IMG/VR virus record: IMGVR_UViG_3300042894_000427 | Location: 1 to 28,961 of that record | From: a virus | Direction: 5' to 3' (one strand) | Length of the DNA: 28,961 bases | Shown: piece by piece, positions 5,165 through 27,365 of the stretch | How the letters are laid out: the number at the start of each line of letters is the position of its first letter | Numbering within the stretch: position 1 is the stretch's first letter | Made by a program: the position numbers and the translations under genes | The notes under the pieces: model-generated | What the model was told of the DNA's origin: nothing | Seen by the model: only the letters and a program-made list of their open reading frames with translations | Database searches by the model: none

Positions 5165-6420
5165 TACTTGCTCCTAAGAGTTTTAACTTTATGTCCAACC
5201 AATGTTTCTGTTGGCTTGCCATCACGATAGATTCTAATGACTGCGGCTGGGTCTTCTGGTGTTCCTGTTACTGTGAAGTCTGAGTTAGGAACATTGTATT
5301 TGCCATTTCTAATAATCCTAACAATCTTTCCTGTCGCTGTACCCCCAGAAGAATTCCAAGAAACCATACTGCCAACACCCATAGTCTTAGACACTCTCTG
5401 TCCTTGGTCTGAGTAATCTTTACCAAAATCAGCAAACAAAGCCTTATCCGCTTCTCTAGTTGCAATAGCACGAGACCAAGTAAAGCCAGCGTCCCCGCCC
5501 CAAGCGTCCCACATTATTCTACCGTTGCTTGGATTAGATGTATTATAAAAGTCTTTGCCTTTTTTATCTACTTCGTGCCTGGAGAAGAATGAATACATTC
5601 GTTTGACAACACTAAGAGACATTGAGCGACCTGCTACAATATCTCTTGCTCTACCCCAGCCTACTGGAGTTCCTGCACCTGTAGCCTTGCCCTCTTCTTT
5701 CCAACGGATAGCACGAGCAGCCGCTGACTTCATTCCAGCAGTTGGAGAATATCCTTCTGCTTTTTCCATATCGTCTTCGTATTCTTCTTCGTCATCATCC
5801 ATAGTGTGACCATCCAAAGTCTCTAGATATACTGCATCTTTGTACATCATACCAATGCTGTATGCTGTTGGTTCCCAAGTTCCTGGCTCGTCTTCGTCTT
5901 CTTCATAAATTCTAACAGCCATGGCTGGGTTCTCTGGCGGCATTGATTGAATGGCATACTCTGTTCCAGGAACACCATAGACACCACCCTCAGTCATAAT
6001 GTGTTCTACCATACCGTGAACCATGCCCTCCGTGGTCATGCCCATGACATAGCAACCCTCCATGATTTCTCCATCTGCTTTGTATACAGCACTAATTGCT
6101 GTTCCGCTAGATGATACAGCACCAGATGCATTGGCTCCATTGCCACCCTGCATTCTTGGTCTGCGAAGTCTAACCCTTCTTCGACTACGCATAGAGTCTG
6201 GTGTTCTTACACCAACGTTTGGATACTTAGGGTTTGCTGTGGATGATGGATTAACACTGTTAGGACCATCAGCCTTGTCTGATTCTGCGGCATATAAAGC
6301 CTGTACTTGCCTTGTGGCTGCTTCTTGTGTCATGTGGCAACCCATGACCTCTCCGCCTTCTTTTATTACTGGATACCCTGAGCATCCATTTGAACCTTTA
6401 GAACCTACTGCATATGGCAT
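5164..6420 (-). CDS. Multidomain phage protein with two tudor/SH3-like modules (prohead-associated type)
   Basis: The 418-residue protein has recognisable blocks. Residues 1-50 (NGCSGYPV...GEVMGCHMTQEAA) resemble an N-terminal segment found on many actinophage prohead or capsid-maturation fusion proteins. A basic RSRRRVRLRRPR patch lies at about 78-90. A first SH3/tudor-like module (about 108-205) ends AVRIYEEDEDEPG. A Ser/Trp-rich helical domain follows at about 222-320 (GWGRARDIVAGRSMS, FFSRHEVDKKG, GWGGDAGFTW... is the block's signature). A C-terminal DUF2945-like tudor module is at about 345-418 (VGSMVSWNSSGGTATGK, AAVIRIYRDGKPTETLVGHKV). I see no protease catalytic motif. A virion-assembly role is inferred. 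Translation is probably coupled to a 12-codon upstream ORF. Confidence 0.65.
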   Translation of the reverse strand: MPYAVGSKGSNGCSGYPVIKEGGEVMGCHMTQEAATRQVQALYAAESDKADGPNSVNPSSTANPKYPNVGVRTPDSMRSRRRVRLRRPRMQGGNGANASGAVSSSGTAISAVYKADGEIMEGCYVMGMTTEGMVHGMVEHIMTEGGVYGVPGTEYAIQSMPPENPAMAVRIYEEDEDEPGTWEPTAYSIGMMYKDAVYLETLDGHTMDDDEEEYEDDMEKAEGYSPTAGMKSAAARAIRWKEEGKATGAGTPVGWGRARDIVAGRSMSLSVVKRMYSFFSRHEVDKKGKDFYNTSNPSNGRIMWDAWGGDAGFTWSRAIATREADKALFADFGKDYSDQGQRVSKTMGVGSMVSWNSSGGTATGKIVRIIRNGKYNVPNSDFTVTGTPEDPAAVIRIYRDGKPTETLVGHKVKTLRSK

Positions 6421-6464: not shown

Positions 6465-6473
6465 ATTATACCA
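6465..6473 (-). promoter_or_regulatory. Extended -10 promoter (TGGTATAAT) for uORF/418-aa gene
   Basis: TATAAT (6465-6470) is preceded directly by TGG, giving the extended -10 motif TGnTATAAT, within the shared string GTGGTATAAT. No good -35 box is visible 16-18 nt upstream. It lies in the 60-nt gap after hsp20 and is followed after 6 nt by the ATG of the mini-ORF. Confidence 0.65.
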
Positions 6474-6996: not shown

Positions 6997-7025
6997 ATTA
7001 TAGCAAAAAAGGATAGGCTTTGCAA
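6997..7025 (-). promoter_or_regulatory. hsp20 promoter overlapping upstream terminator
   Basis: TTGCAA (7020-7025), a 17-nt spacer and TGC-TATAAT (6997-7002) form an extended -10 promoter facing hsp20. The -35 box is the loop of the terminator hairpin at 7011-7032 and the U-tract is inside the spacer. The leader then contains a TGTACC/GGTACA inverted repeat (6969-6991) before AAGGAG. Confidence 0.75.
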
Positions 7026-9678: not shown

Positions 9679-10176
9679 CTACGGTTTCTTTGTAGGTACA
9701 ACTTTCTTAACTGCTGTAGCAACTTTAGATACAACACTCTTCTTAGGTGCTGCATCAAATACCGCAAACAAATCACGGAGGTCAGGCATACCAGCAGTAA
9801 TTAGATTTCTCTTTACACCGTATGTAACGTGTAGGTGATTTCCAGTACTTGCGGTACCTGTTGTTCCAACTAGACCAACGATTGTCTTCCCTGCTTCTAC
9901 CTTGTCACCCTGCTTGAGTGTTGATGGAACCTGGAAGTGTGCGTAAAGAATGAAGTGACCGTCATATGTTGACTGAACTAGATAGTGTCCTAGTACCTTT
10001 GTCTCTCCTACTTCCATTACTGTTCCTCCTGTGATAGCCTTAATCTTGCTACCGCCAGCAACGGACCAGTCAACGCCACGGTGTGGGTTAGTTCTGTATG
10101 ATGCCATGTTCTTGAATCCATCTCCACGCTTATTCTTCGGGAATGGTTCTACATAAATTGCAACTTTTTCTGTCAT
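9679..10176 (-). CDS. M23-family endopeptidase (endolysin candidate)
   Basis: The 165-residue protein is an LytM/M23 zinc peptidase: NPHRGVDW supplies the HxxxD pair (H32, D36), LYAHF gives H80, and GNHLHV gives the HxH at H114/H116. The strand order GTVMEVG, GHYLVQSTYDGHFILYAH, GDKVEAGKTIVGLVGTTG is the normal beta-sheet. A 25-residue Lys/Val/Pro tail follows. M23 enzymes cut peptidoglycan cross-bridges or stem peptides. The ATG at 10176 is preferred because AAAGGAAG lies 7 nt upstream; a 14-codon extension exists. There is no signal peptide, so release would need a holin. It is the first protein gene after three tRNAs and is preceded by its own -10 box. Confidence 0.93.
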   Translation of the reverse strand: MTEKVAIYVEPFPKNKRGDGFKNMASYRTNPHRGVDWSVAGGSKIKAITGGTVMEVGETKVLGHYLVQSTYDGHFILYAHFQVPSTLKQGDKVEAGKTIVGLVGTTGTASTGNHLHVTYGVKRNLITAGMPDLRDLFAVFDAAPKKSVVSKVATAVKKVVPTKKP

Positions 10177-10227
10177 ATTAATACTTCCTTTCAAGATGTA
10201 TTCTATGATTTGGGTCATAGTATTTCT

Positions 10228-10236
10228 ATTATACCA
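10228..10236 (-). promoter_or_regulatory. Extended -10 promoter (TGGTATAAT) before the M23 gene
   Basis: TGG-TATAAT then AG on the minus strand, between tRNA-Thr and the endopeptidase gene. The -35 region lies in the tRNA and does not match TTGACA well. It is the same TGGTATAATAG string as at several other promoters of this phage. Confidence 0.55.
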
Positions 10237-10483: not shown

Positions 10484-10489
10484 ATTATA
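10484..10489 (-). promoter_or_regulatory. Possible -10 box of the tRNA cluster
   Basis: TATAAT overlaps the TAA stop of the gene upstream and ends 10 nt before the 5' end of tRNA-Asn. That is a suitable distance for a tRNA promoter, but no convincing -35 box is seen, and readthrough from the 10755 promoter could also supply the tRNAs. Confidence 0.4.
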
Positions 10490-10727
10490 CAGTGTAACCG
10501 TCATTAGTTGCTCGCCATACAGACGCAGGATGATTCTCCTGAACAGCCAACTTAGTTGCTTCGTCTTCATAAAGTCTAATCATATGAATACATGGGTCTG
10601 CACCTTGGTCAAAACCCCAATCTTCTTCTGCAGTAGTTGGCGTTCCATCGTGAATAACACAAACAGCAGGACCATTCCAGCCCTGTGATAAACCATACTG
10701 CAACCATTCGTCAAAAGTCATTGACAT
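10485..10727 (-). CDS. Small hypothetical protein with own strong promoter
   Basis: The 80-residue, acidic protein runs MSMTFDEWLQYGLSQGW, then PAVCVIHDGTPTTAEEDWGFDQGADPCIHMIRLY. The CVIHDG...E..GFDQGxDPCIH pattern places two Cys and two His in a way that could bind a metal, and similar proteins occur in actinophages without known function. The ATG at 10727 is chosen because AAGGGG lies 7 nt upstream; an ATG 14 codons earlier would lie around the promoter's own start point. It is the first gene of a unit running into the tRNAs and, perhaps, the endopeptidase. Confidence 0.7.
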   Translation of the reverse strand: MSMTFDEWLQYGLSQGWNGPAVCVIHDGTPTTAEEDWGFDQGADPCIHMIRLYEDEATKLAVQENHPASVWRATNDGYTV

Positions 10728-10792: not shown

Positions 10793-11026
10793 CTACTTTT
10801 TTGCTGGAATGTTGTCAACAAATGCTTTGTCAATTTCATCATTAGTTAGTTTACCATCATTGAGATACCCACGAGATAGGTCCTCAATCACATTGGCGAT
10901 ACCCATTACACCTGCCAAAATAGCAGTCTGGACTACATCAATGCCGATTACTGCACCAGCACCAATGGTAGCCAAAGCAGTTACTAAAAATAGAGCAAGC
11001 ATACGCTTTGCAATCTTTAAAATCAT
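10793..11026 (-). CDS. Small membrane protein, second holin candidate
   Basis: The 77-residue protein has two hydrophobic stretches near its N-terminus, ALFLVTALATIGAGAVIGI (about 10-28) and VQTAILAGVMGIANVI (about 30-45). A polar, charged C-terminus follows (EDLSRGYLNDGKLTNDEIDKAF). The size, two-helix topology and position directly behind another small two-helix protein and upstream of an endolysin are those of phage holins. The ATG 11026 has GGAGG a few bases upstream and overlaps the previous stop as TAATG; an ATG 17 codons upstream would lie inside the neighbour. Function inferred from context only. Confidence 0.65.
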   Translation of the reverse strand: MILKIAKRMLALFLVTALATIGAGAVIGIDVVQTAILAGVMGIANVIEDLSRGYLNDGKLTNDEIDKAFVDNIPAKK

Positions 11027-11205
11027 TAGTCTTCCTCCTTGTCTTTTGGATTTCTTAATGGATATGTAATTACCCAAAGAACGCTTGTTCCTACGATGGC
11101 ATATCCAACTACTTCTTTGGCAGAGCCTTCTAGGACTAACCAGGCAACAAACATACCGAGGAGAGTCCAGGCTTGACCAACGATGTCATTTAAAAATTTC
11201 TTCAT
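11026..11205 (-). CDS. Small two-helix membrane protein (59 aa), holin candidate
   Basis: A complete 59-codon frame starts MKKFLNDIVGQAW. It has two membrane segments (about 12-27, WTLLGMFVAWLVLEGS, and 33-49, VGYAIVGTSVLWVITYP) and a charged C-terminal tail RNPKDKEED. Its ATG overlaps the TGA of the PA14 protein (ATGA), with AAGGAGG 6-7 nt upstream inside the last codons of that gene. Its own stop overlaps the next start (TAATG). Two short membrane proteins in tandem, coupled like this and lying upstream of a peptidoglycan endopeptidase, suggest a holin/antiholin pair. No experimental family is recognised. Confidence 0.7.
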   Translation of the reverse strand: MKKFLNDIVGQAWTLLGMFVAWLVLEGSAKEVVGYAIVGTSVLWVITYPLRNPKDKEED

Positions 11206-12785
11206 GTATTCCTCCTTATAATGTTTGATGAAGCACTAGCAGGAGCAGCCATCATAGCGGCACCTGTTGCTGCGTTTACTGCTGCACCTACAGCAACAAT
11301 GGCTGTAACAACAACTTTTTCAGATTCTTCTCTAACCTTTGGTGACATGTCTGCACCAACGTTACCAATAAAGTTAATGGCTCCAACAAGTGCTTCTGCA
11401 CCTGGGATTGCTGCCAGTTCTTCAGACAGGACGATATCGTCTGCTTGAGCAGCAACAAACAAAGCATCTAGGGCTTCTTCATATTCTGGCGAGCCTTGTT
11501 CTGAATTATTTAATATTTCATTTGCTACAGATACAAGTTCTGCTACTTGCTCATTTGAAAGTGTTGTTGGGTCTACTGTAGATACATCTACTGGTAACTC
11601 AGGTTCACTGACTTCGGGGGTTGTTGGCGGCTCTGGCTCTGGTAGCGGTTCTGGCTCAACCTCTTCTGGCTCTTTAACAGGTTCCTCGGTCTTTTCAGGT
11701 GTAGGTGTTGGGTCTCTGAAAGGTGGAATGGCTTGTAGTTCCTGTTGAGCGACACGCAGTGCCTCCTGTTCTGTCATTATATTTTGTAATGATACATCTA
11801 TTTTACCTTGATTTTCAATTTGTTTTTGCTGTAAAATAACTAATGCTAGATTAGCGTTAGACAAATCCAATTGTGCTTGCTCATACTCTGCGACAGCGTT
11901 GTCATATACTTGCTGTGCTTGTTCAAGAAGAACTAAAAGAGCAGGGTCTTTGATATATGTCACAGGTGTTTGTTCATTTTGAGAGAACCATTCTGCTGGA
12001 ACTGTAGCCCATGTCTGACTATTTATATAGAGTAGTTGGTTACAAGCACCACCACCATACTCGTAGAACCAAGCGTCAATAGGATAGGACTTGCCACCTT
12101 CGAGTGCGATTGGTTGGCTCCACCACCCACCACAACCTTTAAGAACCCAATTATCATTTACAACTGTGTTGCCAATTGTCATGTACCAACCATCATCTGC
12201 CTGAGCCAAGAACTCGTAGTTGTCTGTTGCTGGAACTGTTATGAAGCCTGTATAGTTAATCATTACGAAGTCTTCTCCACAGCCTTCCATATTTCCTCCA
12301 CCCCAATCCTTATCTATATTATCTACTGTAATTGTTTTACAGAATGTGTGGGCTGTTGTAGAACGTTCTGGATAATAGTTACTACGGTCAAATGTGTAGA
12401 TGTCTGCCTTTAATCCAGGAACTGTTGGCTCTGTGTTTTCTGGTAGCACTACTATCAGGTTGTTATCATAGTTTTCTCTTGCTTGGTCTACCGCAGATTT
12501 TGCGTCAGCAATAGCCTGAGACTTCTGGACTACTGAAATGTTTTTGTTATCTAGCAAACCCTGTGCTTCGGACAAAGCCAAGTTAGTTTCTGATTGTAGA
12601 GTCTCTGCTGCTGATAAAGAGTTCTGTGCCTCTGTTAGCCTAGCCTGAGCAGCAGAAACTTTAGCCTCTGCTACCTCTATCTTTGCGTCATACTCTGCTC
12701 TTGTTTCTGCAGATGCTGCCTGTGCCAAAAGGATAGGTGAGAGTGCTAGTGTTATAATTGCTAAAATAAAATGGGGTTTTTTAAT
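11202..12785 (-). CDS. Secreted coiled-coil/PA14 protein, apparent AUU start
   Basis: The 527-residue protein is read from ATT at 12785, which has AAGGAG exactly 7 nt upstream. It opens KKPHFILAIITLALSP and ends its signal peptide at an ASA site (residues 24-26). A TTG 20 codons in would cut this signal in half. After cleavage come an Ala/Gln-rich coiled coil (about 27-110), a PA14-type beta-sandwich (about 120-270: IDKDWGGG, ADDGWYMTIGN, KGCGGWWSQ, DAWFYEYGGG), a second coiled coil (about 275-355), a Pro/Glu-rich linker (about 358-400) and a helical domain ending in small hydrophobic residues. PA14 domains bind carbohydrates. It is probably exported and binds the cell surface or wall. It starts the lysis-region operon. 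Confidence 0.7.
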   Translation of the reverse strand: MKKPHFILAIITLALSPILLAQAASAETRAEYDAKIEVAEAKVSAAQARLTEAQNSLSAAETLQSETNLALSEAQGLLDNKNISVVQKSQAIADAKSAVDQARENYDNNLIVVLPENTEPTVPGLKADIYTFDRSNYYPERSTTAHTFCKTITVDNIDKDWGGGNMEGCGEDFVMINYTGFITVPATDNYEFLAQADDGWYMTIGNTVVNDNWVLKGCGGWWSQPIALEGGKSYPIDAWFYEYGGGACNQLLYINSQTWATVPAEWFSQNEQTPVTYIKDPALLVLLEQAQQVYDNAVAEYEQAQLDLSNANLALVILQQKQIENQGKIDVSLQNIMTEQEALRVAQQELQAIPPFRDPTPTPEKTEEPVKEPEEVEPEPLPEPEPPTTPEVSEPELPVDVSTVDPTTLSNEQVAELVSVANEILNNSEQGSPEYEEALDALFVAAQADDIVLSEELAAIPGAEALVGAINFIGNVGADMSPKVREESEKVVVTAIVAVGAAVNAATGAAMMAAPASASSNIIRRNT

Positions 12786-12795
12786 TTTAAGTCTC

Positions 12796-12817
12796 CTTGT
12801 TGGAAGTGCCCAACAAG
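12796..12817 (-). other. Stem-loop overlapping the ribosome site of the PA14 gene
   Basis: A perfect 8-bp inverted repeat CTTGTTGG/CCAACAAG with a 6-nt loop. The last AAG of the 3' arm is the first half of the AAGGAG ribosome-binding site. The predicted start of the promoter just upstream (about 12814) falls inside the 5' arm, so a transcript begun there would keep only about 5 bp of the stem. Confidence 0.65.
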
Positions 12818-12820
12818 ACT

Positions 12821-12849
12821 ATTATACCACTACATTATGTTTATGTTAA
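12821..12849 (-). promoter_or_regulatory. Promoter of the PA14/holin operon (TTAACA-17-TGGTATAAT)
   Basis: TTAACA (12844-12849), a 17-nt spacer and TATAAT (12821-12826) preceded by TGG give a near-consensus extended -10 promoter. The -35 box lies inside the 3' end of the large-terminase gene. The string AGTGGTATAATAGT is also found at 27337. Confidence 0.85.
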
Positions 12850-27336: not shown

Positions 27337-27365
27337 ATTATACCACTAAATCGTTCCAGAGTCTA
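27337..27365 (-). promoter_or_regulatory. Extended -10 leaderless promoter (TAGACT-17-TGGTATAAT)
   Basis: TAGACT (27360-27365), a 17-nt spacer, and TGG-TATAAT (27337-27342) on the minus strand. The ATG of the tail-fibre-like gene follows after 6 nt (AGTACT). The string AGTGGTATAATAGT is identical to that at 12821, and the -35 box lies in the 3' end of the gene upstream. Confidence 0.75.

Follow-up and report, generated by a model that had tools for sequence, protein, structure and literature searches.

A candidate lysis or surface lectin module in viruses of freshwater Actinobacteria, with predicted limits on its translation

How phages lyse Gram-positive and actinobacterial hosts is, apart from the holin and endolysin, little understood. 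A viral contig of 28,961 bases (the window, analysed over its whole length) carries a gene for a predicted exported protein with a PA14 domain (positions 11202 to 12785, on the minus strand, as are all window features whose positions are given below) directly upstream of small membrane proteins and close to an M23 endolysin. The question raised by this locus is what an exported, carbohydrate-binding type of protein could do beside lysis genes, and an earlier note had proposed a wall- or membrane-crossing lysis or surface-exclusion protein. That proposal is supported in part, including for a wall-crossing, membrane-anchored architecture. Additional features not in the note are the non-AUG start with its structured leader, the conserved C-terminal anchor, the pairing with TM1 (fused in a more distant family), and a predicted -1 frameshift in a sister lineage.

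A predicted exported PA14 head on a membrane anchor

The gene encodes 527 amino acids and ends at a TGA stop codon (11202 to 11204). Its first 26 residues (12708 to 12785) form a signal peptide by sequence, MKKPHFILAIITLALSPILLAQAASA, which ends in ASA and is predicted from the sequence to be cleaved before ET; the most hydrophobic 19-mer spans residues 6 to 24. The export signal claimed in the earlier note is supported. No lipobox was found in the sequence of the window protein. AlphaFold2 (mean pLDDT, 80.9) placed a PA14 fold between two long helices, giving a head-on-stalk model composed of stalk helix 1 (residues 29 to 108, positions 12462 to 12701, pLDDT mostly >90), the PA14 fold (residues 111 to 278, positions 11952 to 12455, with the Pfam match at residues 124 to 241), and stalk helix 2 (residues 281 to 351, positions 11733 to 11945). 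The reported pair of coiled coils survives in part; both helices are long and confidently modeled, but hydrophobic periodicity at 3.5 residues was not significant in either (71 and 84 of 500 shuffles scored as high). A coiled coil in these stalk helices is likely.

The stalk is followed by a low-pLDDT linker rich in Pro and Glu, as had been noted (residues 352 to 405, positions 11571 to 11732; 16 P and 13 E within 53 residues), and then by a conserved membrane-proximal helical domain containing GNVGADMSP (residues 411 to 478, positions 11352 to 11555), which is supported by comparison of relatives and by AlphaFold2. The C-terminus, previously described as rich in small residues, is likely a membrane helix judging by hydropathy (residues 489 to 512, positions 11250 to 11321; the 19-mer at 491 has a mean hydropathy of 1.93) and terminates in a basic RR end. 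AlphaFold2 confidence was low in this region, as in the linker. These features would be those of a protein exported by Sec and anchored by its C-terminal helix.

The PA14 assignment held in a profile search (Pfam PF07691, E value of 3.6e-8, 33.8 bits versus a cut-off of 24), and a GLEYA profile also matched (E value of 4.2e-5), below the GLEYA cut-off. Structure prediction of the head region gave the PA14 beta-sandwich, with Foldseek E values down to 7e-10 and PDB matches to the PA14 domains of RsgI, Epa adhesins, flocculins, and an ice-binding adhesin. The Asp-Asp calcium/sugar site of the PA14 lectin subgroup was kept among 38 sequences, D197 in at least 90% and D198 in all; sugar binding by the head is predicted. 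A PA14 fold like that of yeast flocculins and adhesins and of bacterial adhesins, together with the stalked head, would suit a displayed lectin that sticks infected cells or debris to uninfected hosts and so carries progeny in dilute lake water. Such an adhesin is very unlikely, as no gene or context speaks directly in its favor and the gene is located in a lysis cassette.

PA14 domains also occur in phage tail proteins as a matter of general knowledge, and the weak matches listed include tail or adsorption proteins, which raises the alternative of a tail or head decoration lectin that merely resembles an exported protein. This virion reading is highly improbable given the signal peptides visible in relatives whose N-terminus was read, the C-terminal membrane helix, the coupling to a small membrane protein, and the lysis neighbors.

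A conserved cassette and its viral family

The PA14 gene overlaps by ATGA with the gene for TM1, a 59-aa two-TM protein (WTLLGMFVAWLVLEGSAK; positions 11026 to 11205), which in turn overlaps by TAATG with the gene for TM2, a 77-aa holin-like protein (10793 to 11026). The ATGA coupling to two small membrane proteins described earlier is thus correct for TM1, TM2 being joined by TAATG instead. Further downstream lie an 80-aa protein that recurs in the cassette by neighborhood comparison (10485 to 10727) and the M23 endolysin (9679 to 10176, from a start with a Shine-Dalgarno sequence at 10176; an extended reading of the ORF would start at 10218). The suspected link to holin-like proteins is supported. 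TM2 matched the holin family phrog_443 (E value of 6.2e-4), and the association with the cassette recurs in genome contexts that are unrelated to one another. TM1 has the form of a holin, a small two-TM protein in a lysis cassette, and matched solely families of unknown function (best, phrog_16956; E value of 6.8e-4) and no known holin family. TM2 also matched phrog_26427 (E value of 1.3e-23), whose label of "nuclease" is at odds with a small membrane protein and is probably a library mislabel.

Among relatives, TM1 lies directly behind the PA14-protein gene in 68 of 70 distinct loci (the exceptions are L078 and L093), mostly with overlapping or abutting codons, and the ORF upstream of TM1 nearly always ends in the same anchor module. 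Of 36 distinct loci, 32 have an endolysin no more than about 6.5 kb away and 25 have a recognizable holin. The cassette occurs in several settings, including after TerL, after ribonucleotide reductase genes, and in the order M23-holin-PA14 protein-TM1. Two loci (L080 and L165) have an extra small membrane protein of about 80 aa between the anchor module and TM1. Downstream of the cassette in L024, L036, and L040 are signal-peptide proteins resembling exported peptidases, of which L040 gave an M9-like Pfam match below the cut-off (E value of 1.3e-4) and the others gave no Pfam match.

A first scan of viral contigs yielded 47 relatives of the PA14 protein, and the count then rose to at least 238, alongside at least 598 relatives of TM1. 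No homologues of the PA14 protein were found in species-level bacterial genomes. A tblastn search of 50,697 phage records with the whole protein and the anchor module recovered solely the PA14 part, in Pelagibacter phage HTVC008M, and TM1 had no tblastn match in phage genomes. (The PA14-bearing protein of HTVC008M, at 5746 to 7071 of L096, adjoins the curli genes csgF and csgG.) The phage records searched contain a single, distantly similar member, the metagenome-assembled DSL-LC01. The earlier impression of an unfamiliar composition is supported as far as the searches of phage genomes and family libraries reach, and the PA14 protein belongs to a large, widespread, previously undescribed viral family. 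Because WhiB was present in 17 of 20 viral records tested and the terminase is closest to those of Streptomyces phages (~54%), gene content identifies Actinobacteria as the hosts of these viruses.

The constant part of the family is the C-terminal module, with the pattern ADDI..IPG..GNVGADMSP..RE..EK followed by the membrane helix and RR. The head is exchanged between relatives; most have PA14, and others have an L-type lectin or a SUEL-like domain. A more distant family, consisting of phage DSL-LC01, which was assembled from lake water (PMC10611076), and 34 viral contigs, has a TM1-like hairpin fused to the lectin. Its layout is a signal peptide, a sugar-binding head, a Thr/Pro-rich linker, a membrane helix, and a C-terminal TM1-like two-helix hairpin, and AlphaFold2 placed one helix and then two more where expected, with modest confidence. 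One head carries an L-type lectin (E value of 5.7e-43) plus a SUEL lectin domain, and another carries PA14. TM1 aligned with the fused hairpin in hhalign with a probability of 95.8 and an E value of 8e-9, and homology between the anchor domains of the two families was judged by eye. In one locus (L132), the TM1-like hairpin is a separate small ORF. The charge pattern of TM1 suggests that both of its ends are inside, which together with the fusion argues for a cytoplasmic C-terminus of the PA14 protein, so the predicted topology is signal peptide end out and anchor end in.

TM1 was present in 1 of 396 genomes of the bacterial order examined. In the genome assembly of actinobacterium acMicro-4 (L213, 5003 to 6165), TM1 and a relative of the PA14 protein that has the signal but no head lie beside tRNA-Thr among ordinary chromosomal genes, and the 12 kb read contains no lysis genes; the copy may be the remainder of an integrated phage or element.

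An outward-facing lectin whose head type differs between otherwise similar phages, as receptors would, could also act in superinfection exclusion or debris masking, covering glycan receptors on the infected cell and its debris. Rival phages would then fail to adsorb and progeny would escape trapping, with TM1 serving as a small membrane immunity-like protein. A putative strong sigma-70-like promoter belonging to the gene itself, the soluble lectin that a frameshifting lineage would additionally make (see below), and the host-genome copy lacking lysis genes all fit this explanation. The persistence of holin and endolysin beside the gene in different genome contexts, and the placement of conservation in the anchor and TM1 rather than the head, count against it, and we regard it as rather unlikely.

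Leader, predicted AUU start, and predicted frameshifting

The putative promoter of the PA14 gene consists of a -35-like hexamer, TTAACA (12844 to 12849), located 17 nt upstream of TATAAT and inside the end of the terminase gene, and an extended -10 element, TGG-TATAAT (12821 to 12829), recognized by its sequence and conservation. Next is a leader hairpin supported by covariation (CTTGTTGG/CCAACAAG; 12796 to 12817), which runs into a conserved Shine-Dalgarno sequence, AAGGAG (12793 to 12798). After a 7-nt spacer, the gene begins ATT AAA AAA. The stretch from the in-frame stop to the signal peptide contains no ATG, GTG, or TTG, which is why the start is assigned to the conserved noncanonical codon ATT (12783 to 12785); the TTG chosen by ORF finding (12728) would remove the signal peptide. 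Provided that this ATT is the start, the gene limits in the earlier note, 11202 to 12785, are right.

The extended -10 sequence TGNTATAAT occurs at 6 sites in the window versus 2.0 expected, including further coding-strand sites at 6465 to 6473, 6997 to 7005, 10228 to 10236, and 27337 to 27345. The last of these has an ATG about 6 nt downstream and would yield a leaderless mRNA. No second copy of the leader was found in the window, and Rfam identified three tRNAs and no other match.

Across 46 distinct leaders tabulated, the plan is constant: TGNTATA[A/C]T in all (one has TATACT), exactly 3 nt, the stem, GGAG, 5 to 9 nt, and the start. With the sole exception of L045, each has a stem whose loop measures 6 to 10 nt. 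When leaders of a sister lineage were included, the stem had 19 doubly changed cells versus 7.3 ± 1.8 in shuffles, with 92.9% paired. The position of TATAAT predicts transcription from a point at or close to the stem. A DNA operator at this site, in place of an RNA hairpin, was disfavored because both arms remain complementary across loop lengths of 6 to 10 nt.

Among leader-bearing genes with an in-frame anchor, all 50 distinct cases have a non-AUG start (AUU in 45, AUC in 3, and AUA in 2). A few of these leaders contain an in-frame TTG or ATG further upstream, which would make a poor start given its place within or ahead of the hairpin. An AUU codon should initiate weakly and be sensitive to IF3. 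The leaders and start codons thus suggest AUU-type initiation, and low translation, in this family; codon-anticodon discrimination by IF3 has been surveyed elsewhere (PMC10158994). Three loci inside the AUU-type lineage on the tree (L154, L159, and L197) apparently start in the ordinary way and lack the leader, and are possibly reversions.

In the sister lineage, 42 of 42 distinct sites have a canonical -1 slippery heptamer (C CCA AAA in 24, T TTA AAA in 17, and A AAA AAA in 1) at which, or one codon after which, the reading frame stops; beyond it the anchor module is encoded in the -1 frame. Sister-lineage genes that have the same leader start with AUG in 12 of 12 distinct cases. The predicted product without the shift is a secreted lectin, and with the shift an anchored one. 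Stems downstream of the slippery site are stable, but their z-scores are 0.03, -1.92, -5.25, and -1.72 and the consensus fold is weak; a stimulatory stem is plausible at the predicted site. Transcription slippage would be likely solely for the A7 site, the others being runs of three and four, and sequencing error as the source of split genes is excluded by the 42 distinct sites that share the arrangement. A further split gene, in L053, seems to result from one nonsense change. In a tree built from the anchor module and TM1, the AUU-type and frameshift-type genes each form roughly one lineage, so the mutual exclusion of AUU-type start and frameshift rests on few events.

A low dose by weak start or frameshift would also suit a regulator. 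The ectodomain could report an outside event, such as a superinfecting phage or the glycan state, through the membrane helix to TM1 and the holin, and the large external domain, single membrane helix, and coupled two-TM protein adjoining a holin are arranged as a lysis-timing sensor might be. A comparable role is known from T4, where RI and holin T bring about lysis inhibition; RI is small and unrelated, however, and no sign of interaction with the holin was seen, which leaves a sensor quite improbable.

A proposed rationed lectin in lysis and its relation to known systems

The role we favor, by analogy in action to LysZ or spanins and at slightly less than even confidence, is that of a rationed, membrane-anchored lectin that assists lysis. 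The Sec pathway would export the PA14 protein during infection, and the C-terminal helix would hold it in the cytoplasmic membrane, the linker passing through the wall to a lectin head on the outside. Together with TM1 it would make up a small module in the membrane, binding glycans of the surface or wall and helping to open the envelope once holin and endolysin act, as LysZ reportedly does via lipid-anchored glycans. An anchored module could harm the cell too early, a reason for keeping its amount low, which would be achieved by the weak AUU start here and, in the sister lineage, by a -1 frameshift that anchors only a part of the chains. Through the overlap of start and stop codons, the dosage limit would extend to TM1.

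The lysis-accessory proposal follows from the steady presence of holin and endolysin as neighbors. A membrane module is suggested by what stays constant (the anchor, TM1, the coupling, and the signs of low dosage), and a changing surface glycan by the variable head. Counted in its favor are the conservation of the anchor rather than the head, the interchange of heads among sugar-binding types, TM1 in 68 of 70 loci, an endolysin in 32 of 36, and the TM1-like fusion in the distant family; counted for rationing are AUU-type starts in 50 of 50, AUG in 12 of 12 frameshift genes, and heptamers at 42 of 42 sites. Weighing against it, lysis cassettes also contain unrelated genes, TM1 and a headless relative stand outside any visible lysis cassette in acMicro-4, LysZ has the reverse orientation, and nothing visible in the endolysins of these phages calls for a helper.

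More broadly, and somewhat more tentatively, the lectin-plus-TM1 module of freshwater actinophages may represent a new lysis or surface class whose dose is capped by an AUU-type start or a -1 frameshift. If so, phage lysis, or the protection of infected cells, would gain a lectin-based step in monoderm hosts. A conserved AUU-type start in a viral family, along with a choice between secreted and anchored products by frameshift, would be an unusual form of translational dosage control.

The closest functional comparison is LysZ of corynephages CL31 and Cog, which is described as membrane anchored and reportedly acts with lipid-anchored surface glycans to complete lysis (PMC13056207). Both are actinophage lysis-cassette proteins with a membrane anchor and a link to glycans. 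LysZ is described as a protein of 177 aa with one TM and an N-in/C-out orientation (PMC13056207), whereas the PA14 protein has 527 aa, a signal peptide, a predicted N-out/C-in orientation, a PA14 head, and TM1 as a partner. On the features tested, the PA14 protein is a member of neither the LysZ nor the spanin group.

Spanins (Rz/Rz1 and the unimolecular type, from general knowledge) resemble the PA14 protein and TM1 in being an overlapping lysis-region gene pair with long extra-membrane stalk helices, and one-protein versions exist in both, as unimolecular spanins and as the related-looking fused family. Spanins join the inner and outer membranes of Gram-negative bacteria, whereas the hosts here are Actinobacteria, no outer-membrane lipoprotein is present, and a lectin head is added; TM1 is a two-TM protein, so the pair lacks the spanin combination of an inner-membrane protein with an outer-membrane lipoprotein, or of both anchors in one protein.

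The PA14 lectins and adhesins Epa1, Flo1/Flo5, MpAFP PA14, and RsgI3 have the head fold and Asp-Asp pair in common with the window protein, but they come from fungi or bacteria, where they serve as surface or sensor proteins; we know of none that is paired with TM1 or found in a lysis cassette. In translation, the nearest parallel is infC, in which a conserved AUU start follows a good Shine-Dalgarno sequence and is discriminated against by IF3. The likeness is the AUU-type start behind a good Shine-Dalgarno sequence, and the difference is that infC belongs to the host and controls its own product, whereas this is a phage surface protein for which, to our knowledge, no feedback on its own start is known. 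The sister lineage has its counterpart in the lambda tail assembly genes G and GT, where a slippery heptamer gives a minor extended product; the -1 heptamer is alike, but the extension here would be a membrane anchor on a secreted lectin.
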